Below, piece by piece: positions 9,812 through 33,930 of a stretch of DNA of 33,930 nucleotides. The stretch's first letter is position 1; each line of letters starts with the position of its first letter. Location of the stretch: positions 1 to 33,930 of the forward strand of contig WGEZ01000084.1 of the NCBI GenBank assembly GCA_015492515.1, read 5' to 3'. The notes beneath the pieces were generated by a model. The model was not told the DNA's origin. It searched no databases and saw nothing but the letters and a program-made list of their open reading frames with translations. Origin of the DNA: Nitrospirota bacterium. Its GTDB lineage: Bacteria; Nitrospirota; Thermodesulfovibrionia; Thermodesulfovibrionales; JdFR-85. A program made the translations under genes and the position numbers.

Positions 9812-9815
9812 AGAG

Positions 9816-10604: not shown

Positions 10605-11237
10605 GTGATGCTCACTCTGCTGCTGGTGTTGAGCCTGGCGGCGGGCTGGACGCCTGCCGACGCGATCAGGGAGTACCTGTTGAAGAGCTACCCCTGGCCG
10701 GAGGTCGAGGTGAGCGAGGTCACGGTGGAGGGTTCCGTGCCGGCCGGGGTGCCGGCGGAGATAACGACCGAGAGGGGGCCTCTCGGGAGGGCCTCGTTCA
10801 TGGTGCGGTTCATCAGCGGCGAAAGGGCCCGCGTGAGGGCCAGGGTCGTGGCGCGGGACGCCACGGTCAGGAGCGTGCGGTCACTGGCCAAGGGAGCCCT
10901 CCTGACGGAGGACGAGGTCTACACGGCGATGATGGATGTACGGAGGATACCGAGGGGGGCCGTCCGGAGCCTGGAGGGGGTTCTGGGGAAGCGGCTGAAG
11001 AGGTCGTTGCCGGCGGATACGGTGATCACCGAATCGATGCTCGAGGAGCCCCCCCTCGTCAGGAAGGGAGAGAAGGTGATCATCCTGTACAGGGGTCCCT
11101 ATCTGAAGGTCACCACCACGGGCATCGCACGGGAGGACGGCAGCAGGGGTGAGGTGATAGTGGTCCTGAACGCAGGCTCCAGGAAGAGGCTCTCGGGCCT
11201 CGTCGTCGGAAAGGGGGTCGTGGATGTCAGCCCTTAG
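10605..11237 (+). CDS. flgA: Flagellar P-ring assembly protein FlgA
   Basis: Signal peptide and SAF-like C-terminus (AKGALLTEDEVYTAMMDVRRIPRGAVRSLEGVLGKRLKRSLPADTVITESMLE...GLVVGKGVVDV), between flgG and flgH. Start could be GTG 10605 or ATG 10608. Confidence 0.9.
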   Translation: MMLTLLLVLSLAAGWTPADAIREYLLKSYPWPEVEVSEVTVEGSVPAGVPAEITTERGPLGRASFMVRFISGERARVRARVVARDATVRSVRSLAKGALLTEDEVYTAMMDVRRIPRGAVRSLEGVLGKRLKRSLPADTVITESMLEEPPLVRKGEKVIILYRGPYLKVTTTGIAREDGSRGEVIVVLNAGSRKRLSGLVVGKGVVDVSP

Positions 11238-11955
11238 GGGAGGGGCCTCAGGGGTGAGGGGCCTTGCAGCCCTTCTGGCATTGACTGCGCTGCCCGGTCT
11301 GTTCTCGGCGGGCTGTTCCTCCACCGCGAGTCTTCCGCCTCCTCCGCCTGCCTACGTCCTGAAGCCCACGGATGAGGCCGCCGGGACCCGGTCGCCGGGC
11401 TCCATATACAGAGAGAGGGCGAGCCTCTTCGAGGACAGGAGGGCCAGGAGGTTGAACGACCTCGTGACGGTCCTGATCGTGGAGAACGTCTCCGGGGCCA
11501 AGAAGGCGGAGACGAAGGCCGGGAGGGACTCCTCCATCGATGCCTCGATCAGCAAGCTCTTCGGCATCCCCCTCGACTTCAACCTCAAGAACCTGTACGG
11601 AAAGGGGAACACCTTCGACCCCTCCCTGGGCAGCTCCATAGAGTATGATTTCCAGGGCTCCGGGGAGACGAGCAGGGAGGGGACCCTCAAGGGCACCATC
11701 ACGGCGAGGGTGGTGGACGTCCTCCCGAACGGAAACCTGATGATAGAGTCGAGGAAGGAGATCACCCTCAACTTCGAGAAGCAGGTCCTCGTGCTGAGGG
11801 GCACGATAAGGCCCGACGACATATCCACGGAGAACACGATAGAGAGTACGAGGATCGCCGACGCCCAGATATTCCTCGTCGGCGAGGGGATCATCGATAA
11901 CAAGCAGTCCCCGGGCTGGCTGGGGAGGCTGGTCGACAGGGTATGGCCCTTCTGA
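11224..11955 (+). CDS. flgH: Flagellar L-ring lipoprotein FlgH
   Basis: Lipobox LFSAGCSS; LYGKGNTFDPSLGSSIEYDFQGSGETSREGTLKGTITARVVDVLPNGNLMIESRKEITLNFEKQVLVLRGTIRPDDI. Confidence 0.95.
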   Translation: MSALRGGASGVRGLAALLALTALPGLFSAGCSSTASLPPPPPAYVLKPTDEAAGTRSPGSIYRERASLFEDRRARRLNDLVTVLIVENVSGAKKAETKAGRDSSIDASISKLFGIPLDFNLKNLYGKGNTFDPSLGSSIEYDFQGSGETSREGTLKGTITARVVDVLPNGNLMIESRKEITLNFEKQVLVLRGTIRPDDISTENTIESTRIADAQIFLVGEGIIDNKQSPGWLGRLVDRVWPF

Positions 11956-11998
11956 TGGAGGCTGTTCAGGTGTCCCATACCTGGAGAGGTGGCGGCGG

Positions 11999-13090
11999 AT
12001 GATAAGGGGTGCGACCGTACTGGCCCTCACCCTCGTGCTGGTCCTGCCCGGCCGCACCGTCGAGGCGGAGAGGCTGAAGGACATAGCCTTCGTCGAGGGC
12101 GTGAGGGAGAACCAGCTCGTCGGCTTCGGCCTCGTCGTGGGCCTGAAGGGGACGGGTGACAAGGGCAACGCCACGATGCAGGGCATAGCGAACATGCTCT
12201 CCAGGATGGGGCTGAAGGTGAAGGCGAAGGACCTGAAGGCGAAGAACGCCGCTGCGGTCATGGTTACGGCCACGCTGCCGGCCTTCCCGAGGGCGGGCAA
12301 CAGGATCGACGCCGTCGTCTCCTCCGTGGGCGACGCCAAGGACCTCCAGGGCGGGACCCTCCTGATGACACCCCTGAAGGGGCCGGACGGAGTGGTGTAC
12401 GGCCTCGCCCAGGGGCCTGTCTCGATAGGCGGCTTCTCGGCTGGCGGCGGTGGAGGGGCGGTGCAGAAGAACCACCCCACGGTGGGCAGGGTGCCCAACG
12501 GCGTGATCATAGAGAGGGAGGTCCCTCTCTCGCTGAGGGGGCTGAGGGAGGTGAAGATAATACTCCGCAGCCCGGACTTCACGGTGGCCTCGAACGTCGC
12601 AAAGGGGATAAACAGGTTGCTGAAGAGCGAATACGCCGAGGCCGTCGACCCCTCTACGGTGATACTCGGGGTGCCCGAGGAGTACCGGGGCAGGGTCGTG
12701 GAGCTGATGAGGCTCGTGGAACACGTCGATGTCGGCGTGGATGCACCGGCCAGGGTGGTCATCAACGAGCGGACGGGCACGGTGGTGATCGGCGACGACG
12801 TGAGGATCTCTCCCGTTGCCATAGCGCACGGAGGCCTGACCATCGAGATAACCACCGAGTTCAGGGTCTCACAGCCGCCCCCCCTCTCTCCTGGTGAGAC
12901 CGTGGTGGTCCCGCAGACCGATATCACGGCGGAGGAGAAGAAGGCCCACCTCATGGAGGTCTCGGGCACGACCCTCGGCGAGGTCGTGAGGGCGCTGAAC
13001 AGGATGGGGGTTACGCCAAGGGACCTGATCGCCATCCTCCAGGCCCTGAAGGCCGCGGGTGCACTCAAGGCGGAGCTGGAGATAATCTGA
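11999..13090 (+). CDS. flgI: Flagellar P-ring protein FlgI
   Basis: RLKDIAFVEGVRENQLVGFGLVVGLKGTGDKGNATMQGIANMLSRMG...LNRMGVTPRDLIAILQALKAAGALKAELEII. Confidence 0.97.
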   Translation: MIRGATVLALTLVLVLPGRTVEAERLKDIAFVEGVRENQLVGFGLVVGLKGTGDKGNATMQGIANMLSRMGLKVKAKDLKAKNAAAVMVTATLPAFPRAGNRIDAVVSSVGDAKDLQGGTLLMTPLKGPDGVVYGLAQGPVSIGGFSAGGGGGAVQKNHPTVGRVPNGVIIEREVPLSLRGLREVKIILRSPDFTVASNVAKGINRLLKSEYAEAVDPSTVILGVPEEYRGRVVELMRLVEHVDVGVDAPARVVINERTGTVVIGDDVRISPVAIAHGGLTIEITTEFRVSQPPPLSPGETVVVPQTDITAEEKKAHLMEVSGTTLGEVVRALNRMGVTPRDLIAILQALKAAGALKAELEII

Positions 13091-13899
13091 TGATCTACCC
13101 CGATCCGATATCCCTCTACGGCATGACCTCTCCCGGGGAGGGGGTGAGGAAGGTCTCCAGGGAGTTCGAGGCCCTCTTCATCTACGAGCTCCTGAAGGGT
13201 ATGAGGGGCATGGCCGGGAAGGGGCTCTTCGGCGAGGGGCTCTCAGGGGATGTCTTCCAGACCCTCTTCGAGATGGAGCTGGCGAGGGTGCTCGCAGAGC
13301 GGGGGACCGGGCTGTCGGAGGTCCTGGTCAGGACCCTCGAGGGAAGGGGCCGTGAGGTGGACGGAGTCTCAGGTGAGGCTCTGCACCCCGGGCCGGAGAC
13401 CGGGACTGCAGTGGATGCCGCCGCCGTTTCAGAGGAGGTGACGGGGGGCAGAACCCCGGCGGTATCGATCGAGCCCCCGAGGGGTTCGAATGCGGTCCCC
13501 GGGGTTGAGGCGGGGGACCGCAGGGGAAGGCTCCCGGTCGAGGGGAGGATTACATCCGGCTTCGGAAGGAGGATCGATCCCATAACGGGTGAGACGAGGG
13601 TCCACAGGGGTGTGGATATCGCCGCAGCCCCCGGGACCGAGGTCTATCCCTTGAGGGCCGGGAAGGTGATCTTCAGCGGGGCCCTGAAGGGGTTCGGCAA
13701 CATCGTCGTCATTGAGCACGACGACGGCATGGTGACGAGGTATGCCCATAACCAGAGGAACCTCGTCAAGGCGGGGGACCGCGTCGCCGGAGACACCCCC
13801 ATAGCCCTGGTGGGGAGCACGGGGAGGTCCACCGGACCGCACCTGCACTTCGAGGTCCTGGAGGGCGGCAGACATGTGGACCCCTTGGAAGTCGTGTAG
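13090..13899 (+). CDS. flgJ: FlgJ-like rod-binding domain fused to M23/LytM metallopeptidase
   Basis: N-terminal VSREFEALFIYELLKGMRGMAGKGLFGEGLSGDVFQTLFEMELARVLAERGTGLSEVLVR (rod-binding). C-terminal TSGFGRRIDPITGETRVHRGVDIAAAPGTEV...TGPHLHFEV with M23 HxxxD and HxH metal motifs. Confidence 0.92.
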   Translation: MIYPDPISLYGMTSPGEGVRKVSREFEALFIYELLKGMRGMAGKGLFGEGLSGDVFQTLFEMELARVLAERGTGLSEVLVRTLEGRGREVDGVSGEALHPGPETGTAVDAAAVSEEVTGGRTPAVSIEPPRGSNAVPGVEAGDRRGRLPVEGRITSGFGRRIDPITGETRVHRGVDIAAAPGTEVYPLRAGKVIFSGALKGFGNIVVIEHDDGMVTRYAHNQRNLVKAGDRVAGDTPIALVGSTGRSTGPHLHFEVLEGGRHVDPLEVV

Positions 13900-13912
13900 G
13901 GCGCCGGCGTAT

Positions 13913-13939
13913 TAAAGTTTTTCGCCTGCCGGCCGATAG
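13913..13939 (+). promoter_or_regulatory. Sigma-28-type promoter upstream of flgM
   Basis: TAAAGTTT-N11-GCCGATAG. Confidence 0.85.
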
Positions 13940-13970
13940 TATAAGTGAAATCCATCACTGGAGGTTCAGC

Positions 13971-14258
13971 ATGAAGATTCACGGTGGAAGGCCTCCCGAG
14001 AGCCAGGATGCCTATCTCAGGGCGCAGAAGACGACGGGCAAGGAGGCGGTCGAGGGCAAGGGGGCCGTAGAGAAGAGGAAGGTCGGTGACAGGGTGGACC
14101 TCACAGGGGCCGGCAGGGTCGAGGAGCTGAAGGCCGAGATCCAGAGGCTGCCGGAGGTGAGGACCGACAGGATCGAGGCCGTGAAGAAGGCCATAGAGGC
14201 CGGCACATACCGGATTGACGCCGAGAAGATACTCTCCAGGATGATCGACGAGCTATGA
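13971..14258 (+). CDS. flgM: Anti-sigma-28 factor FlgM
   Basis: GDRVDLTGAGRVEELKAEIQRLPEVRTDRIEAVKKAIEAGTYRIDAEKILSRMIDEL; SD GGAGG; downstream of a sigma-28 promoter. Confidence 0.93.
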   Translation: MKIHGGRPPESQDAYLRAQKTTGKEAVEGKGAVEKRKVGDRVDLTGAGRVEELKAEIQRLPEVRTDRIEAVKKAIEAGTYRIDAEKILSRMIDEL

Positions 14259-14695
14259 AGGATTCGACACCGATATTGAACATCCTTGAAGAGCAGGTGA
14301 GGTGCTACGGCAGCCTCTACGGGCTGTTGAAGAGCGAGAAGGAGGCCATAGTCTCCTTCGACCCCGCGGTGTTCGAAGAACTCGCCAAGCAGAAGGACAA
14401 CCTCGTCCTGCAGCTCAGACTGCTGGAGGACGAGAGGAAGAGGCTCACCGACGAGTTCTTCTCCGAGGAGGACACGGGCAGGAGCATCTCGGACCTCTAT
14501 GCCGTCACCGGGGACGAGAGGTTCGTCAGGATACGCTCCCGGTTGATGAGTCTGTTGCAGGGCATAGAAGAGCTGAACGAGATAAACAGGCTCCTCATCG
14601 AGAGGGCCTCGCTGCACCTCAGTGCATCAGCAAACTTCTTCCAGACCTTTAACATGGATGCATCGAGGAAGGTCACCGTCTCCAGAGAGGCGTAG
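14255..14695 (+). CDS. flgN: Flagellar export chaperone FlgN
   Basis: Helical ~146 aa protein overlapping flgM by ATGA, followed by flgK; FlgN-like pattern (LEEQVRCYGSLYGLLKSEKEAIVSFDPAVFEELAKQKDNLVLQLRLLEDERKRL). Confidence 0.87.
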   Translation: MKDSTPILNILEEQVRCYGSLYGLLKSEKEAIVSFDPAVFEELAKQKDNLVLQLRLLEDERKRLTDEFFSEEDTGRSISDLYAVTGDERFVRIRSRLMSLLQGIEELNEINRLLIERASLHLSASANFFQTFNMDASRKVTVSREA

Positions 14696-14721
14696 CGCCT
14701 TCCCGGTTTCAGAGGTTTGAG

Positions 14722-16344
14722 ATGGCCATCTTGGGGTTGTTCGATATAGGCAGGTCAGCCATATTTGCGAGCCAGACCGCTCTGGACGTCACGGCGAACA
14801 ACATCGCGAACATCAACACCCCTGGTTACTCACGGAAGGAGGCGATCCTCGAGATATCGGACCCTGTCCGGACGGGTGCCGGGTTCGTGGGAAGGGGGGT
14901 CACCGTGGGAGGGATAAAGCGCTACTACGACCGCTTCCTCCAGGCGCAGATCTCCCTCCAGTACCAGAGGACGGGCAGGGCGAACATACTGGGTGAGCTC
15001 TACAGGGCTGTGGAAGGGGCCTTCAACGAGCAGCAGCCCGGCTTCTCCGAGGCCTTCAGTGAGTACAGGAAGGCCTGGCAGGAGGTTTCGGACAATCCCG
15101 AGGCCCTTCCCCAGCGCTCGGTCCTCCTCCAGAGCGCCCTCAGGCTGGCAGGCCTTGCAAAGGGCGTCGAACGCACACTCACGGACCTCCTCGAGGACGG
15201 TACGGAGAAGATAATCGATGCCGTGGAGAGGATAAACACGACAGCCGCTGAGATCTCCTCGCTGAACGAGATGATAGCCAAGGTGGAGGCCGGCAGCTCC
15301 ACCCAGGCCAATGACCTGAGGGACAGGAGGGACCGGTTGATGAACCAGCTCAGCGAGCTCGTCGACTACTCATACTTTGAGGACGACCGGGGAAGGGTGA
15401 CGGTGATCGTGGGGGGCAGAAACCTGGTATCAGAGACGGGGTACTCCGAGCTCACCGCGGTGGAGAACAGCGACGGTACGGTGGATATCTTCGGAGGCAG
15501 GGTGAGGATGAACGACTACATCTCGGGAGGCCGGCTCTCGGGGCTTCTGGCTGCATCGGAGGAGATAAAGGGCGGTCCCCTCAAGGACTTCCGGAGGCTC
15601 ATCGCCTCCATCGTGAAGGAGACGAACCTGCAGCACAGGGAGGGCTACGGGCTCGACGGCTCAACGGATAAGGACTTCTTCAGCCCCCTCCGGCTCTTCA
15701 CCAAGGACTACTCCGACGGCGCCTCCATTACCGCGGCGGCGATCACAGACTACTCCTCGTTGAATCTCCACGAGTACGAGATCAGGTTCACCGACCCCGG
15801 CACCTACGAGGTCTATGATATCGACGAGGAGAGGCTTGTGACGTCGGGTTCCTACACCTCTCCCCAGACGATCTCCTTCGAGGGGATCGAGGTGGAGATA
15901 ACCGATGACGCCGGCGGCCCCCTCAGGGGCGACAGGTTCTTCATAAGCCCCCTTGAGATGGCGGTCACCGGCCTCTCGCTCAACGTCACAGAGCCCGAGG
16001 AGGTGGCGGCGGCCTCTGCTCCCGACACCCTGCCGTCGGACAACAGGAACGCCCTCTCGATGGCCGAGCTCCTGCAGGGGAGCGTCCCGGACCTCGGCGG
16101 CAGCTTCGATGATCACTACAGGGGTATTGTGGGTGTGACGGGTTACATGAGCAGGGCGGCCCAGGACAGCAGCGACTTCGAAGAGAGCCTCCTGGAGGAG
16201 CTGAGGCTGAGGAGGGAGTCCGTCTCCGGGGTGAACCTCGACGAGGAGGCGGCCAACCTCATAAGGTTCCAGAAGGCCTTCGAGGCCGGCGCAAGGCTCA
16301 TCAGGATGACCGATGAGCTGCTGGAGGAGATACTGAGGCTATGA
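14722..16344 (+). CDS. flgK: Flagellar hook-associated protein FlgK
   Basis: LFDIGRSAIFASQTALDVTANNIANINTPGYSRKEAILE; C-terminal RRESVSGVNLDEEAANLIRFQKAFEAGARLIRMTDELLEEIL. Confidence 0.95.
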   Translation: MAILGLFDIGRSAIFASQTALDVTANNIANINTPGYSRKEAILEISDPVRTGAGFVGRGVTVGGIKRYYDRFLQAQISLQYQRTGRANILGELYRAVEGAFNEQQPGFSEAFSEYRKAWQEVSDNPEALPQRSVLLQSALRLAGLAKGVERTLTDLLEDGTEKIIDAVERINTTAAEISSLNEMIAKVEAGSSTQANDLRDRRDRLMNQLSELVDYSYFEDDRGRVTVIVGGRNLVSETGYSELTAVENSDGTVDIFGGRVRMNDYISGGRLSGLLAASEEIKGGPLKDFRRLIASIVKETNLQHREGYGLDGSTDKDFFSPLRLFTKDYSDGASITAAAITDYSSLNLHEYEIRFTDPGTYEVYDIDEERLVTSGSYTSPQTISFEGIEVEITDDAGGPLRGDRFFISPLEMAVTGLSLNVTEPEEVAAASAPDTLPSDNRNALSMAELLQGSVPDLGGSFDDHYRGIVGVTGYMSRAAQDSSDFEESLLEELRLRRESVSGVNLDEEAANLIRFQKAFEAGARLIRMTDELLEEILRL

Positions 16345-17345
16345 GGCTCTCGAGCTTCATCATATACGACAGGGTCGTAAGGTCGATGCAGGAGAACCTG
16401 ACAAGGCTCGGTGAGAGCCACCTCTCGATCGCCACGGGCAAGAGGATAAACAGGCCGTCACAGGACGTCACGGGAGCCGTGAAGGCCCTCGACTACAGGG
16501 TGAGAATCGACGAGTCGGAGCAGTACATCAGGAACATCGACGATGCCAGGGCGTACCTGGAGCTGACGGAGACGGTCCTTGCAGGCGTCGGTGACGCCCT
16601 CACGAGGGCGAAGGAGCTCTCACTGGCGGCCCTGAACGGTGACGAGAGCGCCGAGACGAGGGCGATCATGGCGAAGGAGGTGGATGGGCTGAGGGAGCAC
16701 CTCCTCGGCAGGGGCAACACGAGGTTCCGCGGCAGGTACATCTTCAGCGGCTTCCTCACCGACACACCCGCATTCGACGGAGGCGGGCTCTACCAGGGTG
16801 ACGGCAACTACATCGAGATAATGACCGGACCGGACCTGAAGGTGAAGGAGAACATAACGGGCGAAGAGGCCTTCGCCTATACACAGGAGGCGGAAGAGAC
16901 GGTCGAGACCGGGGGCGGCGGGTTCATCCACTACATACCCGGCGGAGGGACGACGGTCACTGTGGAGATACGGGCCAGCGACGACACCACGGTGCTGGAC
17001 ACCTTCAGCTTCAGCTCCTTCATCGAGCTGCTCGACATACTGGCCCGTGCACTCGAGGCGGATGACACCGGGAGGGTGAACGCGATCCTGAAGCCCCTGG
17101 ACGACTCCCTCCAGCAGACCCTTGACGTGAGGGCCGAGGTCGGTGCCCGGCTCGACCTGCTTGAGGCCGAGAAGAGGAGGCTGGCCGACGGTGTCTTCAA
17201 CCTCAAGACCGTCCTCTCCGAGACGGAGGATGCAGACATCACGGAGGTGATAGCCGAGATGTCCAGGACAGAGGTGGCCCTCCAGGCCCTCAGGGAGACG
17301 GGCGCAAGGATCCTGAGCCAGTCCCTCATGGACTTCCTCAGGTGA
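16341..17345 (+). CDS. flgL: Flagellar hook-associated protein FlgL
   Basis: Flagellin-type N-terminus (TRLGESHLSIATGKRINRPSQDVTGAVKALDYR...YIRNIDDARAYLELTETVLAGVGDALTRAKELSLAALNG); RGRYIFSGF; overlaps flgK by ATGA. Confidence 0.94.
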   Translation: MRLSSFIIYDRVVRSMQENLTRLGESHLSIATGKRINRPSQDVTGAVKALDYRVRIDESEQYIRNIDDARAYLELTETVLAGVGDALTRAKELSLAALNGDESAETRAIMAKEVDGLREHLLGRGNTRFRGRYIFSGFLTDTPAFDGGGLYQGDGNYIEIMTGPDLKVKENITGEEAFAYTQEAEETVETGGGGFIHYIPGGGTTVTVEIRASDDTTVLDTFSFSSFIELLDILARALEADDTGRVNAILKPLDDSLQQTLDVRAEVGARLDLLEAEKRRLADGVFNLKTVLSETEDADITEVIAEMSRTEVALQALRETGARILSQSLMDFLR

Positions 17346-17377
17346 GCCGCCCTCACGGAAAGGAGTAAGGAGGCAGG

Positions 17378-17608
17378 ATGCTGGTCCTGACAAGGAGGTC
17401 AGACGAATCGATCCGTCTTGGAGAGGAGATCATCGTAAAGGTCGTGGAGATAAAGGGCAATCAGGTGAGGTTGGGGATAGTGGCCCCGAAGGGGCTCAGG
17501 GTCTACAGGGAAGAGCTGTATCAGAGGATCGCCGAGGAGAACAGGCTCTCTGCAGCCTCAGGGCTCGAGGCCTTCGACAGGTTGAGGGGGGTCTTCAGGA
17601 AGGGATGA
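17378..17608 (+). CDS. csrA: Carbon storage regulator / translational repressor CsrA
   Basis: MLVLTRRSDESIRLGEEIIVKVVEIKGNQVRLGIVAPKGLRVYREELYQRI. Confidence 0.97.
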   Translation: MLVLTRRSDESIRLGEEIIVKVVEIKGNQVRLGIVAPKGLRVYREELYQRIAEENRLSAASGLEAFDRLRGVFRKG

Positions 17609-18015
17609 TAAGGTTCGGTACCTCCAGGTTCGGCCAGATCGAGGTGCCCGAGGAGAGGGTGATCATCTTCCCGCAGGGCCTGCTCGGCTTTCCGGAGCTG
17701 AAACGGTACATCCTGATGGATTACAAGGACACGGACGTGAAGTGGCTCCAGGCGGTCGACGACCCGGACGTGGCCTTCATCGTGATCAACCCCTTCCTCC
17801 TGGACCCGGGCTACAGGCTCGAGGTCTCCGAGGAGGTGAAGGAGTTCATCGGACTCGGTGACGCAGAGGCCCTCGCCGTCCTGGTGATACTGAGGATCGA
17901 TGACGCCAGGCTTAAGGCGAACCTGCAGGGACCGATCGTCATCAACTCAATGAACAGAAGGGGGGTCCAGCTGGTACTCGACGGCGCTGGTGCCCAACAG
18001 CGGTTTCGACTGTAG
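17605..18015 (+). CDS. fliW: Flagellar assembly factor FliW (CsrA antagonist)
   Basis: TSRFGQIEVPEERVIIFPQGLLGFPELKRYILMD...WLQAVDDPDVAFIVINPFLLDPGY; overlaps csrA by ATGA. Confidence 0.96.
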   Translation: MIRFGTSRFGQIEVPEERVIIFPQGLLGFPELKRYILMDYKDTDVKWLQAVDDPDVAFIVINPFLLDPGYRLEVSEEVKEFIGLGDAEALAVLVILRIDDARLKANLQGPIVINSMNRRGVQLVLDGAGAQQRFRL

Positions 18016-18030
18016 AGGAAGGGCTCGGTC

Positions 18031-18882
18031 ATGCTCACGATAGTCGGCATAATCGTCGTTTTAGTCGCGGTGGTCGGTGGTTACCTGATGGAGGACGGAA
18101 ACCTCCATGTGCTGTTCCAGCCGGCCGAGGTGGTGATCATATTCGGTGCAGCCACCGGCTCCATAATTATCGCCTCCCCTCCGAAGGCGATCAGGATGAT
18201 ACTGAAGAGCATCGGGAAGATCTTCTCCTCCGGCGGCAGGGGGAAGGCGGGTTATCTCGATCTGTTGGTGCTCCTGTACCAGATATTTTCGAAGATCAGG
18301 AAGGAGGGGCTCATCTCCATAGAGGCCGAGATAGAGAACCCGGAGAGGAGCCCCCTCTTCACGAAGTACAGATCCGTCCTCTCCGATCACCATACACTGA
18401 GCTTCCTCTGCGACAACCTCAAGGTGATCATCTCGACGAACGTCCCGCCCCATGAGCTGGACAGCCTTATGGAGACGGAGATAGAGACCCATCACCACGA
18501 GGCGCTCGTGCCGTATCACAAGATCTCCATGGTCGCCGACGCCCTTCCGGGCCTCGGTATAGTGGCCGCGGTCCTCGGGGTGGTGCTCACCATGGGCAAG
18601 ATGTCAGAGCCTCCGGAGGTCCTGGGTCACAGCATAGGGGCGGCCCTTGTGGGTACGTTCATGGGTGTCCTGATGTGTTACGGCTTTGTGGGCCCCATCG
18701 CAAAAAACCTTGAGTCAAAGATAAAGGATGACGGCGTGGCGCCTCAGATCGTGCGGGTGGCCCTCGTCTCCTTCGTCGGCGGTGCGGCCCCGCAGATGGC
18801 GGTGGAGTTCGGAAGGAGGGCCATCCCCACCTCGGACAGGCCGAGCTTCAACGAACTTGAAGAAAGGATCAGGAAGAGATGA
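18031..18882 (+). CDS. motA: Flagellar motor stator protein MotA
   Basis: MLTIVGIIVVLVAVVGGYLMEDGNLHVLFQPAEVVIIFGAATGSIIIASPP...ALPGLGIVAAVLGVVLTMGKM...IGAALVGTFMGVLMCYGFVGPIA. Confidence 0.96.
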   Translation: MLTIVGIIVVLVAVVGGYLMEDGNLHVLFQPAEVVIIFGAATGSIIIASPPKAIRMILKSIGKIFSSGGRGKAGYLDLLVLLYQIFSKIRKEGLISIEAEIENPERSPLFTKYRSVLSDHHTLSFLCDNLKVIISTNVPPHELDSLMETEIETHHHEALVPYHKISMVADALPGLGIVAAVLGVVLTMGKMSEPPEVLGHSIGAALVGTFMGVLMCYGFVGPIAKNLESKIKDDGVAPQIVRVALVSFVGGAAPQMAVEFGRRAIPTSDRPSFNELEERIRKR

Positions 18883-19700
18883 AGGATGCAAAGGTGGTCA
18901 TAAGGAAGGTGAAGAAGGCAGCCGACGAGGGACATCACGGAGGGAGCTGGAAGGTGGCCTACGCGGACTTCGTCACCGCCATGATGGCCTTCTTCCTCCT
19001 GCTCTGGCTGCTGACCATGGTCTCCGAGGAGAAGCGGATAAGGCTTGCCGCCTACTTCAAGTATTTCAGCCTCTTCGAGGAGGCCGGCAGGTCCTTCATG
19101 AGCCAGTCCAGTGAGGTCTTCAACGAGGGTGGAGAGTCCTATGACAAGGTCTTCTCCCCCCACTATTACCAGTTCGGCGGCACCTCCGGCGCCACGCGCG
19201 ACACCTTCGAGGAGGCGATCAAACGGGCCGTCGAGACCATGCTCGGTGACGTGAAGGACCAGATACTGGTGAAGGTCGTCGACGACGGGGTGAAGATAGA
19301 GATCGTGGACAAGGACGGCTCCTACATCTTCCCCAGGGGGAGCACCGAGCTCACCCCGAAGGCGAAGAAGATACTCCGCGTCCTGGGTGACAAGATCGGG
19401 GAGATCGACAACAGGATCATCATCGAGGGGCATACGGATTCATACTCCTTCTCGTCCAGGAGCAACTACACCAACTGGGAGCTCTCCGCCGACAGGGCGA
19501 ACGCCACAAGGAGGTATCTTGAATCGATCGGGATCGATCCGTCGAGGATTACCAGGGTCGTCGGTTATGCCGACAGGGATCTGCTCATCAAGGACGATCC
19601 CTGGGACCCGAGGAACAGGAGGATCGATCTGGTGATCCTCTTCGAGAAGGACGACGGAGAGGAGCGTAAGAGGATCTACACCCGGCCCGGAGCCGGCTGA
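18879..19700 (+). CDS. motB: Flagellar motor stator protein MotB (proton-type plug/TM sequence)
   Basis: GGSWKVAYADFVTAMMAFFLLLWLL with conserved Asp; OmpA-like domain IIIEGHTDSYSFSSRSNYTNWELSADRANATRRYL. Confidence 0.95.
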   Translation: MKDAKVVIRKVKKAADEGHHGGSWKVAYADFVTAMMAFFLLLWLLTMVSEEKRIRLAAYFKYFSLFEEAGRSFMSQSSEVFNEGGESYDKVFSPHYYQFGGTSGATRDTFEEAIKRAVETMLGDVKDQILVKVVDDGVKIEIVDKDGSYIFPRGSTELTPKAKKILRVLGDKIGEIDNRIIIEGHTDSYSFSSRSNYTNWELSADRANATRRYLESIGIDPSRITRVVGYADRDLLIKDDPWDPRNRRIDLVILFEKDDGEERKRIYTRPGAG

Positions 19701-24345: not shown

Positions 24346-25389
24346 TCAGGTCCGTACATGCCTGAGGATGATGTCCGGTATCTCCTCGAGAGAGGCGACC
24401 CGGTCCACGGCGTTCATCTCTATCGCCTTCTTCGGCATGCCGAAGACCACGGAGGAGGTCTCGTCCTGGGCTATTGTGAAGGCCCCGGCATTCTTCATCT
24501 CCAGCATCCCCCTTGCACCGTCCTCACCCATCCCGGTCAGGATCACGCCGATGGCGTTCTTCCCCGCATATCTCGCAACGGAACTGAAGAGGACGTCGAC
24601 GGAAGGTCTTACATAGTTCACCCTCGGTCCGCCCCTCACCTCGGTGTAGTACATCGCACCGTTCCGTTTTATCGCCGTGTGCTCGTTGCCCGGCGCTATC
24701 AGCACCGTACCCCGCAGGACCCGGTCACCGCTGCCCGCCTCCTTCACATCCAGCCTCGAAAGGGAGTTCAACCTTTCGGCAAAGGAACGGGTGAACTGGG
24801 GCGGCATGTGCTGGACTATCACGATGCCCGGCGTCGATTCCGGCAGCGCCGTTATTATCTCCGTTATCGCCTGCGTCCCTCCCGTCGAGGCTCCGATGGC
24901 CACTATCTTGTCCGTCGTGGATATCACGGGCTCCGTCCGTGGTCCCGGGGCCGGAGGTCTGCTCCTGAACCGATGTCTCACCTTCGCCTTTGCAGCGATC
25001 CTCACCTTCCTGACGATCTCCTCACCGAGATCGACGATCCCCTTTGAGACGTCGATGCCCGGCTTGGGCACGTAATCGATGGCTCCCAGCTCCAGGGCCC
25101 TCAACGTGGTCTCGCACCCCTTCCGTGTCAGGGCGCTGACCATCACCACAGGGACGGGATCGGTCTTCATCAGCTCTTCCAGAAAGGTGAGGCCGTCCAT
25201 CCTCGGCATCTCCACATCGAGGGTGATCACGTCCGGTCTGAGGCTGCTGATCTTCTTCAGGGCGAACACCGGATCCTGCGCGGTGCCGACGACCTCTATG
25301 TCGTCGGAGTCGTTCAGTATCTCGGTGAGAAGGTGCCTGATGACCGCTGAATCATCTATGATCAGGACCTTTATCCTGTTCTGCACCAT
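24346..25389 (-). CDS. cheB: Chemotaxis-specific protein-glutamate methylesterase CheB
   Basis: Receiver IKVLIIDDSAVIRHLLTEIL..VITLDVEMPRMDGLTFLEELM; catalytic VAIGASTGGTQAITEIITALP..IVIVQHMPPQFTRSFAERLN..GVILTGMGEDGARGM. Confidence 0.97.
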   Translation of the reverse strand: MVQNRIKVLIIDDSAVIRHLLTEILNDSDDIEVVGTAQDPVFALKKISSLRPDVITLDVEMPRMDGLTFLEELMKTDPVPVVMVSALTRKGCETTLRALELGAIDYVPKPGIDVSKGIVDLGEEIVRKVRIAAKAKVRHRFRSRPPAPGPRTEPVISTTDKIVAIGASTGGTQAITEIITALPESTPGIVIVQHMPPQFTRSFAERLNSLSRLDVKEAGSGDRVLRGTVLIAPGNEHTAIKRNGAMYYTEVRGGPRVNYVRPSVDVLFSSVARYAGKNAIGVILTGMGEDGARGMLEMKNAGAFTIAQDETSSVVFGMPKKAIEMNAVDRVASLEEIPDIILRHVRT

Positions 25390-25392: not shown

Positions 25393-25851
25393 CTATTGCA
25401 CCTCCTTCAGTGTTTTTGCAAAGGCATTCCCCGTGGCCGTGTAAAAGACCACCTTGATGCCGAAGTCCTTCCCTGTACACTCCCTGATGACGGGGATGCC
25501 GTACTGCTTCAGGACCTCCTTCGCCACCCTGATGTTCTCCCTCCCCACATCGAGGCTCTGGTTGAACTCCCTGATCACCCTTCCGCCTCCGAAGACCTTG
25601 GCCCTGAGACGGTGGATGTCGGCGCCCGTCCTCAGAAGGGTCTTGATCAATCTGGAGGTTGACTCGGCGCCGCAGAGTTCGGGCACTCTCACGGCGCTGC
25701 CTGCAAGGGGCAGCATGAAGTGGTTCATCCCGCCTATCCTCAACCCCTCGTCCCAGAGGCAGACGGAGACGCAGGAGCCGAGGACCGTCTCGAGTATCGA
25801 CGGCTCCCTTGAGACGACGATGTCACCGATGTTCAGTACGGTCTTCTTCAT
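25393..25851 (-). CDS. cheD: Chemoreceptor glutamine deamidase CheD
   Basis: VLGSCVSVCLWDEGLRIGGMNHFMLP...KVFGGGRVI...GRENIRVAKEVLKQYGIPVI. Confidence 0.96.
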   Translation of the reverse strand: MKKTVLNIGDIVVSREPSILETVLGSCVSVCLWDEGLRIGGMNHFMLPLAGSAVRVPELCGAESTSRLIKTLLRTGADIHRLRAKVFGGGRVIREFNQSLDVGRENIRVAKEVLKQYGIPVIRECTGKDFGIKVVFYTATGNAFAKTLKEVQ

Positions 25852-26717
25852 CTCTTCCTGTACACCGTGATGTAGACCGGTTCGAACTGCTCCCTGCCGA
25901 ACATCGTCTCCGAATGGCCGAGGAAGAGGTATCCCCTCTCCGACAGATGACGATGGAACATGGACAGGACGTGCCTCCTCATCTTTTCGTCGAAGTAGAT
26001 CATCACGTTCCTGCAGAAGATGACGTCGAAGGCCCTCCTGAAGGGGTATCTCTCATCCTTGAGGTTGAGTCTCCTGAACCTTATCATCTCCTTTACGAAG
26101 TCCCTCACCTTGATCCTTCCTGCGTCAGCCCTGACGCCTTTCAGGAAGTACCTGCCCACAACCTCCGGAGGGATCTGCACCGGGATCTGGTCGTACTCGT
26201 AGACCCCGGCCTCGGCTGTCTGCAGCACCTGTGTTGATATATCGGTGGCAAGCACCTTTACGTCCCAGCCTGCCCAGACGCCGCCCTGCTTGATCTTCGC
26301 CCCCTCCCACCTCAGCGCCTCATGGACGGCGATCGCGATGGAGTAGGGTTCCTCACCCGTGGAGCACCCGGCACTCCATATCCTGATGACCTTCTCGGAA
26401 CGCCTCTCCCTCAACAGCTCAGGGACGACGGCATTCTTCAGATACTCGAAATGATAGCCTTCCCGGAAGAACTTCGTCGTGTTCGTCGAGATGCAGTTGA
26501 GCATCTCTATCAGCTCTTCGTTGTCGCCCTTCACCAGGAGGTAATACTCGTGGAAGTTCCTGAGGCCGTGCATCTTGAGCCTCTTGCCTAACCTCGAGAT
26601 GAGAAGGCCTTTCTTCTGCATACCCAGCTTGATCCCGGCGGTCCGGTATATCAGGTCCGTGAAGAGGGTGAAGACCTCGTCACTGATTTCAAGGTCGGGG
26701 CTCTTCAGGACCTTCAT
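25848..26717 (-). CDS. cheR: Chemoreceptor methyltransferase CheR
   Basis: ISTNTTKFFREGYHFEYL...IRIWSAGCSTGEEPYSIAI...FDVIFCRNVMIYFDEKMRRHVLSMFHRHLSERGYLFLGHSE. Confidence 0.97.
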   Translation of the reverse strand: MKVLKSPDLEISDEVFTLFTDLIYRTAGIKLGMQKKGLLISRLGKRLKMHGLRNFHEYYLLVKGDNEELIEMLNCISTNTTKFFREGYHFEYLKNAVVPELLRERRSEKVIRIWSAGCSTGEEPYSIAIAVHEALRWEGAKIKQGGVWAGWDVKVLATDISTQVLQTAEAGVYEYDQIPVQIPPEVVGRYFLKGVRADAGRIKVRDFVKEMIRFRRLNLKDERYPFRRAFDVIFCRNVMIYFDEKMRRHVLSMFHRHLSERGYLFLGHSETMFGREQFEPVYITVYRKR

Positions 26718-26735: not shown

Positions 26736-27530
26736 CTATCTGTAGATCTCGTTGATGACGTCGACACCGCAGCTGAGGCCTGAAAACCATTGGAAGAACC
26801 CATCCACGTACTCCTTCCCGAAGATGGCACCGTGCTGGGGAGCGATCATCTCTATCTCGTACTTCGATATCGTCTCCAGATATTTCCTGCAGACCGAGTT
26901 GGACGCCATGTATCTCTTGTGGAACCCTTCCATCAGCTTGAGGTGGCTGTCGAAGTCCCTGACGAAGGAGTATCTCTGCCCCTTCGGGAAGACCGCTGCT
27001 CCGAGATCACCGGAGAAGAGGATCTTCGAGCGGGGGTCGTACAGATGGAGGTTGCCGACGGAATGGAGGAAATGGGCCGGGACTATCTCGAGACAGTCCC
27101 CTGATGGGAACTGGATCCTTCCCCCCCTGTCCTCGACGGGCACTATCCTGCTCATGTCCAGGATGCCGTAGTGGGGTATGAACCTCACCCACCACTTCGA
27201 TATGTGTATCTTCGCCGGGGTGACGCCGAGCCAGAGCGTCGTGCCCGAAGAGACGTCCGGGTCCTGGTGGGTGAAGAATATGTGCTCGATCCTCTCGAGG
27301 TCGATGTGTCTCGACGTGCTGGCAACGACACGGGGGAAGACATGGATGCCGCCGGGGTCGAGAAGGACCCCCACGCCCTTGTTCTCGATGAGGTACTGAT
27401 TCACCTGGACCAGTCCCTCCTCCTCATGTTCCTCCCACCCAAGCCATATGAACCGATGCTCTCCGTCGTCGAAGAGGACCTCTCCCTTGATGATATCGAC
27501 CTCCCTCTCTGCGATCATCGTATCTGTCAT
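26736..27530 (-). CDS. Metallo-beta-lactamase-fold diiron protein, FDP/ODP-like (candidate O2/iron chemotaxis sensor)
   Basis: QVNQYLIENKGVGVLLDPGG, IFFTHQDPDVSSG, IVPAHFLHSVGNLHLYDPRSKILFSGDLGAAVFP, IEMIAPQHGAIFG: flavodiiron-type MBL motif order without a flavodoxin domain. Embedded in the che operon. Confidence 0.82.
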   Translation of the reverse strand: MTDTMIAEREVDIIKGEVLFDDGEHRFIWLGWEEHEEEGLVQVNQYLIENKGVGVLLDPGGIHVFPRVVASTSRHIDLERIEHIFFTHQDPDVSSGTTLWLGVTPAKIHISKWWVRFIPHYGILDMSRIVPVEDRGGRIQFPSGDCLEIVPAHFLHSVGNLHLYDPRSKILFSGDLGAAVFPKGQRYSFVRDFDSHLKLMEGFHKRYMASNSVCRKYLETISKYEIEMIAPQHGAIFGKEYVDGFFQWFSGLSCGVDVINEIYR

Positions 27531-27568: not shown

Positions 27569-29254
27569 CTAAAACTCCTCAAAGTCTCCGTCGTTTTCAA
27601 GGGCTCTGCCGGGCCCGCACGCAGCGACGAGCTGGGGCCTCCCTTCCGTTGATTCCGGCCTCCGGACGACCCCTCCTTCCGCCGGTGAGCCCCTCTGCTC
27701 GACACCGTATCGGAGGGCCGCCGCATCGTCCACCTTGAAGAACGCCACCAGGTTCAACAGCTCCTTCGCCTGGGCCGCAAGCTCCTCCGCCGACGCCGAC
27801 GTCTCCTCCACGAGGGAGGCGTTCTGCTGCGTCACCTGCTCTATCTGGGACACGGCGGTGTTCACCTGATTGATCCCGCTCGCCTGTTCTTCCGCCGCGG
27901 CTGCAATCTCGTCCATCAGCTCCGCAGCCCTCGTCACACTCGTCACTATGGACTCGAGCCTGGCGTTAAGCTCCCGTGAGAACCTCATGGCCCTGCTCGT
28001 CCTCTCAACGCCCTCTCTCACCACGGTGGTTATCTCCTTTGCAAACTCCGAGGTCTTCTGTGCCAGGCTCCGTATCTCCGAAGCTATGACGCCGAACCCC
28101 TTCCCGTGCTCGCCGGCCCTCGCCGCCTCGACGGCCGCGTTCAGGGCGAGGAGATTCGTCTGGAAGGCGATCTCCTCGATGACGCCGGAGATGTGGGCTA
28201 TCCTGCCGGAAGACCTCGTCAGCTCCTCCATGGCCTCGATGGTCTTCTCCATCGTTGACGTGCCTGACTTCGCGAGGCCCTTCGTGTTCTGCGACAGCCT
28301 GTTGACGTCCTTGACGCTATCGGTGGTCTGCCTCACCGAGGCCGACATCTCCTCCATCGCGGCTGACGTCTCCTCCACGGATGCCGCCTGTTCCGTTATC
28401 CTCTGGGAGAAGTTCTGGTTCGCCTCTGCTATCTGATCCGCGGCCGTGGAGACCTGGCCCGAGGCCTCAATGGCCTGGGTGAGTATCCTCTTGAGGTTCC
28501 CGGCCATCCGGTTCAGCGACTCCATCATCCGTCCCGTCTCGTTCCTTGACGTCGCATCGAGTGCGACCCTCAGGTCACCGTCCGCCATCCTTTCAGCCGC
28601 CTCAGCGACCTTCCCCATGGGCCCGGTGATGGAACGGGTGAGGAAGAACCCGAAGAGGACAAAGAGGGCGATGGAGACAGGGATGACCGCTGTCAGGAAG
28701 ACCGTCACCTTCCTGACGAGGCTGCTCAGCGCGTCGGAGCGGCGGGTCGTCGCACGGTCAAGTTCAGCGGAGAGGGCGGAGAGGGCCTCCAGGTACGGTC
28801 CGTCGTCGATCTTGACGGCCCGATCGATCTCCTCGACGGTCTTCCCCTCCTTCAGGAGCTGGCGTGTCCGTTGTATTGCGTCCCTGTAGACCTCGGTCAG
28901 CTCCTCCACCCGCTTCAGGGAGTCCTCTTCAACGGGAGAGAGGGACCCCGACGACCGGTAGGCGGAGACGGTGGCGAGTATCTCGTCGGCCCTCTCCTGG
29001 TAGCTGTCGAAGTATCCCTGTTCCCCGCGGAGGACGTAGTTCTTGAAGGCGTGGATCCCGCCTCCGTACCCCATCAGGGACCGGATCCTGGAGAGGTGCT
29101 GCTGTCTGAGATTGACAACGTTGAGATAACCCGACCAGTCGTCCTTGACCCTGCCGAGGCTCAGAACGGCGGTTGCTCCGATGAGGACCAGGAAGATCGA
29201 CCCGAGCCCTATACCCAAGGCGAGTTTTCCTCGAATCGTGATATTCTTAAACAT
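27569..29254 (-). CDS. Methyl-accepting chemotaxis protein (transmembrane, helical-bundle sensor, HAMP)
   Basis: Two TM helices, HAMP ([23 protein letters not shown]), signalling hairpin [51 protein letters not shown]-terminal FEEF. Confidence 0.96.
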
Positions 29255-29271: not shown

Positions 29272-30951
29272 TCAGAACTCCTCGAAGCCTCCGTTGGTCT
29301 TCCCGCCGTCTCCGTCCTCCAGTGATGTGGCGGCCGTCGTGACCGGCTCCGATCCTCCGGGAAGGGCATCATCCCTCTTGAGGCTCCGCCCCGCCCCTTC
29401 AGCTCCCCGAGCATGCCGGGCCTGGTCCCTGTCATGATCCCCGTCTATCTTGAAGAAGGAGACCAGGTTCAGGAGCTCCTTTGCCTGGGCCGCCAGTTCC
29501 TCCGCCGATGCAGCCGACTCCTCCACAAGGGAGGCGTTCTGCTGTGTGGTCTGGTCGATCTGTGATATTGCGGTATTCACCTGGTTTGTCCCTGACGACT
29601 GCTCTGCCGCCGCTGCCGCCACCTCATCCATCAGGTCCGTGACCTTCTTGACGCTCGTGCCGATCTCCTCGAGCTTCCTGTTCAGCTCATGCGCCAGATT
29701 CACGCCCCTTTCCGTCTTCTCCACGCTCTCCTCTATGAGGCCTGTTATCTCCTTTGCGGACTGGGAGGCCCTCTGGGCAAGGTTCCTTATCTCTGATGCG
29801 ACCACCGCGAACCCCTTCCCGTGCTCGCCCGCCCGTGCAGCCTCCACCGCTGCGTTCAGGGCGAGGAGGTTCGTCTGGAAGGCGATCTCTTCTATAACGT
29901 TGGAGATATTGGCTATCTTGGAGGAGGACCTGTTTATCTCGTCCATCGCCTCGATTGTGTCCTCCATCACGCGGCTGCCCGCGTCTGCCGATGCCTTTGT
30001 CGCTTGAGCGAGCTTGTTCGCCTCCCGTGCGTTCTCCGCCGTCTGCCTAATGGAGGCCGACATCTCCTGCATCGTGGCTGACGTCTCCTCAACGGATGAT
30101 GCCTGCTCCGATATCCTCTGTGAGAAGTTCTGGCAGGCCCCTGCTATCTGGTCAGCCGCGGTGGAGACCTGCTGTGAGGCCTCTATGGTCTGGGTGAGTA
30201 TCCTCTTGAGGTTTCCGGCCATCCGGTTCAGCGACTCCATCATCCGCCCCGTCTCATCCCTTGACGTCGCATCGAGCGTGACCATCAGGTCTCCCTCGGC
30301 CATCCTCTCAGCCGCTTCAGCGACCTTCCCGACGGGCCCGGTGATGAGTCGGCCGACCAGGAGCCAACCCGCTCCAAAGGCCGCCATTGAAAGAACGACC
30401 GCGGCGACGAGGACCCAGATGAGGCGGCTGACCTTCCTCGAGGCCTCTGTCTCGTACATCTTCACCGCCCTGTTCATCTCGTTAAGGAGCGGCACGTTGT
30501 TGTCCGTGATGAAATCCAGGGCCTTCCCGTAGGCCGGGTCGTCAGGTTCAGAGGTGAGGATGACCTCGATCCTCTCCCTGAAGGCCTTCCAGAGCCTGCC
30601 GACGTCCTGCAGCTGAGCCAGTATCGCGGGATCGGTGGTGGGCTCCAGCCCCAGCTCCTCATCTCCCTTGATAAGCCCTCTCAGTGAGGTGTCGAAGAGT
30701 CCGGCGGTCTTTCTGAGGCCCTCTTTCAGCCCCTCTACATCGTCGACGGCGCCGTCTCCATACCTGCGGGTAATGCCGAGGACCTCCTTGGCCATCTTCT
30801 GGGTGAGCATCCTCTGTCGTCCTGCGATGTTTATCACCGCGGCATCCCCCTTCTGGAGCGAGATCGTGTAAAGGGTGGCGCCTGTGGCCGTGAGGACTAT
30901 GAGGAAGAACGCCCCCAGTATGAGACCCAATTTGCCTCTGATGCTTTTCAT
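29272..30951 (-). CDS. Methyl-accepting chemotaxis protein with PilJ/NarX-like N-terminal sensor
   Basis: [18 protein letters not shown] sensor motif, [55 protein letters not shown]-terminal FEEF. Confidence 0.96.
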
Positions 30952-30969: not shown

Positions 30970-31479
30970 CTATGTATCCTTGAAAGGCTCGGCCTCTTCT
31001 ACGGCGGCGAATTCATCATCGGAGAGGACCCTCTCGACGTCGAGGACTATCACCAGATCGCCGCCGACCCTTCCCATCCCTCTGACGAAGTCGGTCCTTA
31101 TCCTGCTGCCGAGGGACGGAGGGGCTGCAATGGATTCCTCCGGGATCTGGATGACATCGGATACGGCATCCACGATGAGCCCCATGATCCCGCCCGAGAA
31201 CTCGGTGACTATGATACAGGCGTGCTTCCTGTAGCCGTCGGACCTCATGCCGAACTTCAGCTTCAGATCAACGACGGGCACTATGGTTCCACGAAGGTTT
31301 ATCACGCCCCTGAAGTGCTCGGTCAGTTGCGGGACCTTCGTTATGTTCGTCAATTCTATGATCTCTCGGACGTTACGGGCCGCCACGGCGTACTCCTCGT
31401 CGTTCAGGCTGAAGGTCACGTACTGCTGCTCCTCTCCCGTGGTGTCTTCGGTCTCCTTCACCAATGACCTCTCCGTCAT
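30970..31479 (-). CDS. cheW: Chemotaxis coupling protein CheW
   Basis: QYVTFSLNDEEYAVAARNVREIIELTNITKVPQLTEHFRGVINLRGTIVPVVDLKLKFG. Confidence 0.95.
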   Translation of the reverse strand: MTERSLVKETEDTTGEEQQYVTFSLNDEEYAVAARNVREIIELTNITKVPQLTEHFRGVINLRGTIVPVVDLKLKFGMRSDGYRKHACIIVTEFSGGIMGLIVDAVSDVIQIPEESIAAPPSLGSRIRTDFVRGMGRVGGDLVIVLDVERVLSDDEFAAVEEAEPFKDT

Positions 31480-31508: not shown

Positions 31509-33545
31509 TCATCGGATGACCCGCCTCATTGTTCTTTCGATGATCCCCGGCACATCAAGGACCAGCGCCACCCTGCCGTCGCCGAGGATCGTGCCTCCGC
31601 CGATCCCCCGCACCTTCGGCAGGGCCGTGCCGAGGCTCTTTATGACGATCTGTTGCTCTCCGATGAGGTCGTCCACGAGGAGACAGCACCTCTTGTCCTC
31701 GTGTGACACAAGGACCACGATGGCCTTCCAGGGGTCCCTCTTCCGAGGCGTTACCCCCAGCTCCTCATAAAGCCTTATAAGCGGGATGAACTCTCCCCTC
31801 ACGCCTATGACCTCGTCCCTCTCGTTGAGGGTCTTGACGTTCTCCCTCCCCGGACGGAGGGACTCGATGACCGATGAGATGGGGATGACGAAGACCTCAC
31901 CGCCGATCAACACCGTCAGCCCGTCTATGATAGCCAGGGTTAGCGGCAGCTTGATGGATACCGTGGTCCCCTCGCCCGGCCTCACCCGTATGAAGACCCT
32001 CCCGTTGAGGGCCTCTATGTTCCTCTTGACCACATCCATGCCCACCCCCCTGCCCGAGATGTCCGTCACCTTCTCCGCGGTGGAGAACCCGGGCATGAAT
32101 ATCAGGTTGTATATCTGGTCGTCCGTAAGCCCTGACGGGCTCTCAACGATCCCCTTCTGGACGGCCTTGTTCAGGATCCTCTCCTTGTCGAGGCCCCGTC
32201 CGTCGTCCTCCACGTCGATAAAGACGGAGTCACCCATCTGGTAGGCGCTGAGACGGATCGTGCCATGGGGAGGTTTCCCCCTGGAGGTCCTCTCTTCGGC
32301 GGTCTCGATCCCGTGGTCTATGGCGTTTCTGATGAGATGGACGAGGGGGTCTGTTATCTTTTCGAGGACCCCCTTGTCGAGCTCGGTATCCTCGCCCGTG
32401 ATGACCAGCTCGATCCTCTTGTTCTTGCTGCTCGACAGCTCCCTCACGAGCCTCGTGAACCTGTTGAAGACCTCTCCCACGGGAAGCATCCTCAGGGACA
32501 TGACGCTCTCCTGTATATCCTTCCCTATCCTCTGGAGCTGGGATAGGACGGCGTCCGTCCTCTCAGAGTCCCCGTTGTCGTTGCCCTGGACCGCCTGCTG
32601 GAGCATGGAGTGTATTATCACCATCTCTCCCACGATGTTCACCAGGTGGTCGAGCTTCTTGAGGTCCACCCTGATCGTCGATGATATGGATTTCTTCAGT
32701 GACTCGACCTTTCTCTGGCTCTGCTTCTCCACCACCTTCTCTATGTCCTTCGGCGAGACCTTGCCTTGTTTGACCAGGATCTCTCCCACCCTCTTCTGGC
32801 TCTTCAGCGCCTTCTCCACATCCTCCGGTCCCACGACGCCCTCCTCCACGAGTAACTGTCCGAGGAGCGGGACCTCCTCCTCAGAGGCCTCAACAGGGAT
32901 TATCTTTACATCGCCGCCGTCCATCGCGAATTCGAAGACCTTCTCGATCTCCGCAGGGTCCCTCTCGGTCTTCAGCTCCATCTCCCACCTCAGGTAGAGC
33001 TCTTCGGGGTCCATCTCGGACAGCGGGGGAACGGCGTCCGTGTCGGCCCTCATCGTGACCTCTCCGATCTCCCTGAGGCCATCCAGTATCACCAGCGGGT
33101 CCAGACCTCTCCTGAAGAGGTCAGGTCCCGGCCTGAAAAGGACCCTGTAGGTCCTCTTTGTCTGCAGCCTCTTCAGCTCCTCCATCTCCGTCACCAGCCC
33201 CTCGCACTTCGTGGAGTCGAAGTCACTCCCGGAGGCCACGGCCTCGATCATCTCCTTTATGAGGTCGGTCGCCCTGAGGAGGACGTCGATTGTCTCCCTC
33301 TCCACGGCGAGCCTCTCCTGGCGCATCAGATCCAGCAGCTCCTCCATCACATGGGTGAATCTGGAGATGTCGGTGAAGCCGAGGGTTCCGCTGGCGCCCT
33401 TTATGGTATGGATGGACCTGAAGATGGTGTTGAGGAGTTCCTTGTCCTGGGGAGACTTCTCGATCTGGAGCAGCCCCTCCTCAAAGACGGACGCCTGCTC
33501 CATCGCCTCATCGATGAAGATGCTCCGGAGTTTCTCTAAATCCAC
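31509..33545 (-). CDS. cheA: Chemotaxis histidine kinase CheA
   Basis: HPt FRSIHTIKGASGTLGF; H-box LDHLVNIVGEMVIIHS; HLIRNAIDHGIE; DDGRGLD; GFSTAEKVTDISGRGVGMDVVKRNIEALNG; CheW-like C-terminus. Confidence 0.97.
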   Translation of the reverse strand: MDLEKLRSIFIDEAMEQASVFEEGLLQIEKSPQDKELLNTIFRSIHTIKGASGTLGFTDISRFTHVMEELLDLMRQERLAVERETIDVLLRATDLIKEMIEAVASGSDFDSTKCEGLVTEMEELKRLQTKRTYRVLFRPGPDLFRRGLDPLVILDGLREIGEVTMRADTDAVPPLSEMDPEELYLRWEMELKTERDPAEIEKVFEFAMDGGDVKIIPVEASEEEVPLLGQLLVEEGVVGPEDVEKALKSQKRVGEILVKQGKVSPKDIEKVVEKQSQRKVESLKKSISSTIRVDLKKLDHLVNIVGEMVIIHSMLQQAVQGNDNGDSERTDAVLSQLQRIGKDIQESVMSLRMLPVGEVFNRFTRLVRELSSSKNKRIELVITGEDTELDKGVLEKITDPLVHLIRNAIDHGIETAEERTSRGKPPHGTIRLSAYQMGDSVFIDVEDDGRGLDKERILNKAVQKGIVESPSGLTDDQIYNLIFMPGFSTAEKVTDISGRGVGMDVVKRNIEALNGRVFIRVRPGEGTTVSIKLPLTLAIIDGLTVLIGGEVFVIPISSVIESLRPGRENVKTLNERDEVIGVRGEFIPLIRLYEELGVTPRKRDPWKAIVVLVSHEDKRCCLLVDDLIGEQQIVIKSLGTALPKVRGIGGGTILGDGRVALVLDVPGIIERTMRRVIR

Positions 33546-33611: not shown

Positions 33612-33930
33612 TCACCTCACGAACTTCCTGACGATCTCGATCAACTGTTCGGGCGTGAAGGGCTTCACTATCCAGCCGCTCGCCCCCGCCTGTCTGCCCT
33701 GCTGTTTTTTGGCTTCCTGGGATTCGGTGGTGAGCATTATTATGGGTGTGAACCTGTAACCGGCCCTCTTCCGCAACTGTTTTATGAACTCGATGCCGTC
33801 CATCTCTGGCATATTCAGGTCTGTTATCACCATATCTATACCTGCGCCGTTCAGTTTGCTCAGTGCATCCCTTCCGTTAACTGCTGCAACCACTTCATAC
33901 CCTGCATCCTGAAGGGCGAATGTCACGAGC
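33612..33930 (-). CDS. cheY: CheY-type response regulator, partial (N-terminus outside window)
   Basis: VTFALQDAGYEVVAAVNGRDALSKLNGAGIDMVITDLNMPEMDGIEFIKQLR...IIMLTTESQEAKKQQGRQAGASGWIVKPFTPEQLIEIVRKFV. Frame remains open to the window edge, so the GTG at 33926 is probably internal. Confidence 0.93.
   Translation of the reverse strand, partial: LVTFALQDAGYEVVAAVNGRDALSKLNGAGIDMVITDLNMPEMDGIEFIKQLRKRAGYRFTPIIMLTTESQEAKKQQGRQAGASGWIVKPFTPEQLIEIVRKFVR

Follow-up and report, generated by a model that had tools for sequence, protein, structure and literature searches.

The 33,930-nucleotide stretch of DNA analysed here (the window), from a draft genome of the phylum Nitrospirota, encodes an intact oxygen-binding diiron protein (ODP) in a chemotaxis operon beside transmembrane (TM) receptors, and the soluble receptor that accompanies almost all of its relatives was not found anywhere in the assembly. 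How an ODP passes on its signal is unsettled, the choice being between a dedicated soluble receptor and direct action on the receptor array or the kinase. Among more than 100 close relatives this is the only case in which an intact ODP and a che operon with membrane receptors occur with no soluble receptor, and it therefore forms a natural experiment on ODP signal transfer. Should CheA still be under the control of this ODP, the soluble receptor would be dispensable and the ODP would be a plug-in input module for ordinary arrays; such a module could also serve in engineering chemotaxis that responds to O2/iron.

The genes of the operon follow the order cheY-cheA-cheW-MCP1-MCP2-ODP-cheR-cheD-cheB:

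33612..33930, minus strand: CheY, truncated at its 5' end by the contig boundary (contig C73 completes it in frame, 10-bp overlap)
31509..33545, minus strand: CheA histidine kinase (Pfam Hpt, H-kinase_dim, HATPase_c, CheW)
30970..31479, minus strand: CheW (Pfam CheW, 136.5 bits)
29272..30951, minus strand: MCP1, 559 aa, two TM segments, PilJ-type N-terminal domain, HAMP, MCPsignal, C-terminal FEEF (Pfam, hydropathy)
27569..29254, minus strand: MCP2, 561 aa, two TM segments, CHASE3-like N-terminal domain, HAMP, MCPsignal, C-terminal FEEF (Pfam, hydropathy, alignment)
26736..27530, minus strand: ODP, oxygen-binding diiron protein, 264 aa (Pfam PF19583, PDB identity, AlphaFold model)
25848..26717, minus strand: CheR methyltransferase (Pfam CheR)
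25393..25851, minus strand: CheD (Pfam CheD)
24346..25389, minus strand: CheB methylesterase (Pfam CheB_methylest, Response_reg)

The first-pass annotation had placed the ODP between cheR and two MCP genes, co-directional and closely spaced, and had given both adjacent receptors two TM helices and sensor domains of their own. Both points were borne out: 38 bp separate the ODP gene from MCP2 and 18 bp from cheR, all on the same strand, and each receptor has two hydrophobic segments and an N-terminal domain, PilJ-type in MCP1 and CHASE3-like in MCP2 (the latter a match below the Pfam cut-off). An AGGAGG ribosome-binding site precedes the ATG of the ODP, and no terminator-like sites were found on the minus strand in the MCP2-ODP-cheR junctions. 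Since their HAMP domains are 83% identical, MCP1 and MCP2 are probably tandem duplicates; their C-terminal FEEF resembles a CheR/CheB tether. The Pfam assignments bring cheA, cheW, MCP, cheR, cheB, cheD and cheY together in a single operon of a flagellated organism, whose genome also contains a flagellin gene. The pairing of MCP and ODP is not due to chance, because the adjacent genes form a complete che operon. Elsewhere the window contains a second cheW (5662-6252) and, by inspection, HDOD-like genes and a cluster of flagellar rod, ring and hook genes together with motA/motB (9098-19700), on the plus strand. It also has an open reading frame for a cellulase-family (GH5) glycoside hydrolase of 670 aa (597-2609).

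Judged by its sequence, the protein encoded at 26736-27530 is a genuine ODP. It matches the Pfam ODP profile PF19583 over its entire length (positions 1-194 of 194) with 255.4 bits against a cut-off of 27.2, and it is 60% identical to the ODP of T. maritima (TmODP; 6qrq/6qwo) and 56% identical to that of T. denticola (TdODP; 6qnm/6r9n). The only Pfam matches are ODP and Lactamase_B, making it a stand-alone metallo-beta-lactamase (MBL) domain with no flavodoxin domain. All ligand positions are intact, in the motifs H88, Q89-D90-P91-D92, H153, D175 and Q232-H233; across 54 ODPs, H88, D90, D92, D175, Q232 and H233 are invariant and H153 is conserved at 90% or more. In TmODP a glutamine in motif 5 stands in for the third histidine of motif 2 (PMC7785958), and Q232 is the equivalent of that glutamine. 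The AlphaFold model (mean pLDDT 93) superimposes on TmODP (6qwo_B) with a TM-score of 0.93/0.97 and an rmsd of 1.0 Å, compared with TM-scores of about 0.66-0.74 for flavodiiron proteins (FDPs). An ordinary MBL hydrolase or FDP is thus ruled out by Pfam, by the sequence and fold matches in the PDB and by the motif-5 glutamine, and the earlier reading of an ODP-like diiron MBL protein lacking a flavodoxin domain stands after the profile and structure comparison with TdODP, TmODP and FDPs that it had called for.

Over the alignment columns conserved to 90% or more in its 106 relatives, the window ODP shows 0 deviations (set median 1, maximum 5); the protein is therefore fully constrained, and relaxed selection was not seen. 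Its GC3 (0.81) is the same as that of its operon, so that base composition lends no support to a recent foreign acquisition.

To place this arrangement among its relatives we surveyed ODP neighbourhoods drawn from 80 GTDB-based loci, 44 regions of the window's own phylum and 77 regions of Spirochaetota, Thermotogota and Aquificota. After removal of identical sequences this yielded 112 ODPs with 51.5% or higher identity to the window ODP, itself included; sampling followed similarity and phylum without being exhaustive, and a simple hydropathy window served to call TM segments. In 107 of these the next co-directional gene encodes an MCP without TM segments, typically of 280-320 aa. Three apparent exceptions have simple explanations: in L054 the soluble MCP is interrupted by N (counting it, 108 of the 112 have a soluble MCP), in L244 the ODP sits at a contig end, and in L257 the ODP itself is truncated. 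The fourth, L255 from Aquificota, has a PAS/coiled-coil-like, non-MCP neighbour when read by eye. The window ODP has cheR downstream and a TM MCP upstream, with no sensor-less soluble MCP adjoining it, and is the only one of the 112 flanked by TM MCPs alone. The first-pass annotation had suggested that the pairing departs from the paradigm of an ODP with a soluble receptor, and had proposed a neighbourhood survey for ODPs beside TM MCPs; the departure is upheld by the survey, and extends to the absence of the receptor gene from the assembly.

More distant ODPs occur in other settings. In another genome of the same phylum, an ODP-domain protein of 389 aa (29% identical) is followed by a TM MCP of 681 aa (L150:5420-8662), which is an independent ODP-like/TM-MCP neighbourhood from a different ODP subgroup. 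In Methylobacter a che operon with TM MCPs is followed at a distance of 334 bp by an ODP (L103:2174-10771), which overlaps a downstream gene for a 746-aa protein, a size found in the ODP followers of its relatives (GGDEF-EAL/histidine kinase type); this is probably not a receptor pairing. In the window's own order an ODP is fused to a GGDEF domain in two loci (L138:8599-10350 and L139:9490-11268), in Oceanospirillales tandem ODPs precede an HD-domain protein (L061, L070, L071), and a single Aquificota genome (G378, L045) has six ODP genes.

Partners evidently change: distant ODPs adjoin GGDEF-EAL, HD or histidine-kinase proteins, and there is the Aquificota relative with its non-MCP neighbour. 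Such cases would fit an explanation by which the window ODP no longer signals to chemotaxis, serving O2/iron handling or some other pathway while its position in the operon would do no more than determine its expression. We consider this quite unlikely, as the gene is set inside a complete che operon with spacings of 18-38 bp, and the protein lacks the flavodoxin domain needed for FDP-type catalysis.

The absence of the soluble receptor was followed through the order Thermodesulfovibrionales. Of the 178 genomes, the window genome and 18 others have an ODP (at 69-80% identity in these others), and a soluble receptor (at least 63% identity) is found in exactly the same 18, leaving the window genome as the only one with the ODP alone. 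A search of all contigs of the window genome with the soluble receptor of family f3, the nearest ODP lineage (L033, L113-L115), retrieved neither a soluble MCP nor a remnant of one; its only matches were eight membrane-anchored MCPs at 25-34% identity, apart from a short conserved stretch at 58% in a 391-aa protein on contig C73. Read individually, all eight MCPs of the genome have hydrophobic segments and are membrane-anchored. Two chemoreceptors of the genome (L163:11890-13797 and L164:11242-14094) have PF12974, a substrate-binding domain of the phosphonate type (201-228 bits), attached behind their cytoplasmic signalling domain, which is an unusual position for a binding protein of the periplasmic type.

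With a draft genome in 148 contigs, it could be argued that the soluble receptor exists within an assembly gap, so that the ordinary route from ODP through soluble MCP to CheA operates and only the gene order differs. A candidate site is at hand. In family f3 the ODP gene stands behind cheB of another che cluster, with the soluble MCP gene after it; a counterpart of that cluster exists in the window genome on contig C140 (cheR, two cheY, cheA and cheB at 47-67% identity). C140 breaks off about 300 bp past cheB, at the place of the ODP and the soluble MCP in f3. Up to the contig end this cluster holds no ODP, cheW or receptor. However, the assembly is 100% complete by markers, the search described above found neither the receptor nor a remnant, and in all intact relatives except one the receptor comes immediately after the ODP, a position taken here by cheR, 18 bp away. 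A receptor hidden in a gap is therefore unlikely in our view.

A different substitute could be sought at the head of the operon. The last 10 bases of contig C73 (L165) are the first bases of the window's reverse complement, and joining the two gives a full-length, in-frame CheY. Upstream of cheY, C73 encodes the 391-aa MCP-like protein (L165:10311-11486), which by Pfam and reading of the sequence has an MCPsignal domain and a hydrophobic membrane hairpin, with no HAMP or sensor domain. Being sensor-less and membrane-anchored, and joined to the operon by an in-frame overlap, this protein might replace the soluble receptor as the partner of the ODP. Yet its counterpart stands likewise directly upstream of cheY in the sister genus G311 (L177:5107-6321), which has no ODP. 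In addition, proteins of this type (391-404 aa) show a weak Pfam CheZ match (21.6-32 bits) and a CheZ-like DxxxQ stretch, QFQDITRQR, suggesting a phosphatase-type role instead; they are possibly receptor-phosphatase hybrids. We consider a partnership between this protein and the ODP quite unlikely.

Comparison with the closest genomes may indicate how the arrangement arose. Of the 16 genomes searched in the window's own family, no other one carries this ODP. The sister genera G311 (L177) and G314 (L176) have an orthologous che operon without an ODP, in which CheR is 67-70% identical to that of the window and the last MCP overlaps cheR; the window operon differs from these by one ODP gene and one MCP. 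The ODP may thus have been inserted at the MCP-cheR junction, or alternatively lost from the sister operons, and an MCP appears to have been duplicated. Transfer may have been the source of the ODP, or there may have been multiple losses in the sister genera. In a tree of 95 ODPs the window ODP is sister to family f3 (98/87), followed by family f6 (100/99), inside the group with soluble MCPs, and the loss of the soluble receptor is therefore derived. Apparently, then, a known sensor entered an operon of TM receptors and its own receptor was lost, an arrangement seen in one genome of its genus.

Other components accompany the che clusters of this group. HEAT-repeat proteins of 613-670 aa are encoded directly before cheR in two che clusters (L184:7623-9464, L164:15839-17851, L114:2164-4029); Pfam confirms the repeats for L184 and L164, both from the window genome, and the L114 protein is 47% identical to that of L184. 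In the ODP-bearing che cluster of related Thermodesulfovibrionales we found a CheW-CheZ domain fusion of 392 aa (L033:3761-4939).

On balance we favour an explanation in which a functional ODP has lost its dedicated receptor, is encoded in the main flagellar che operon beside TM receptors, and in its oxygenated form alters CheA. For the identity of the ODP, its ligands, the operon, the absence of the receptor and the difference from the sister operons this rests on sequence comparison; we infer the binding, the contact and the effect on CheA. By analogy with TdODP, the protein would bind Fe(II) and O2 at its diiron site. The oxygenated form would then dock on the TM receptors themselves or on the core of CheA and CheW, the docking would change CheA output, and the operon's array would read cytoplasmic O2/iron in addition to whatever MCP1 and MCP2 sense. 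Muok et al. 2019 (PNAS) reportedly found that iron-peroxo ODP lowers the stability of phosphorylated CheA. Most likely the window ODP retains CheA as its output, via the TM receptors or the CheA-CheW core. More tentatively, and with somewhat less than even confidence, we suggest that it can signal without a dedicated soluble receptor, having left the second che cluster, in which its nearest relatives work, for the main flagellar operon, where it would act directly on the TM receptors or CheA.

In T. denticola, TdODP (TDE2498) is a chemotaxis oxygen sensor genetically coupled to the sensor-less receptor TDE2496; this soluble receptor is thought to sit in membrane-bound arrays, and deleting the ODP alone alters CheA ordering in those arrays (PMC7666581). 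With the soluble receptor probably already part of membrane-bound arrays, ODP input into TM-receptor arrays is no novelty in itself; the novelty lies in the missing dedicated soluble receptor. According to the TREND paper (PMC7319448), ODP genes share operons with MCP genes, in two orders, or with other signalling genes, and ODPs also occur as fusions. No ODP lacking its receptor in an operon of TM receptors is described in the literature searched, which excludes the operons listed by Muok et al. 2019, where similar cases might occur.

The window ODP thus shares with the TdODP and TmODP systems the same sensor (56-60% identical), the same fold, the same ligands including the ODP-specific glutamine, and the chemotaxis setting, but it has no soluble sensor-less receptor beside it or in the assembly, and is adjoined by two TM receptors and cheR. 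The nearest ODPs, those of the Thermodesulfovibrionales loci L033 and L113-L115, are 76-79% identical and likewise belong to a che cluster with TM receptors, whereas they follow cheB of another che system and precede a soluble MCP. FDPs (1vme, 4dik) have the metallo-beta-lactamase diiron fold in common with the window ODP (TM-score ~0.7); they differ in their ~20% identity, in their flavodoxin domain, lacking here, and in motif 5, which is Q-H in the window ODP and G-H in TmFDP. Aerotaxis receptors of the Aer and globin types also bring O2/redox information into the array, with the sensor inside the receptor polypeptide, whereas the window ODP is a separate soluble protein.
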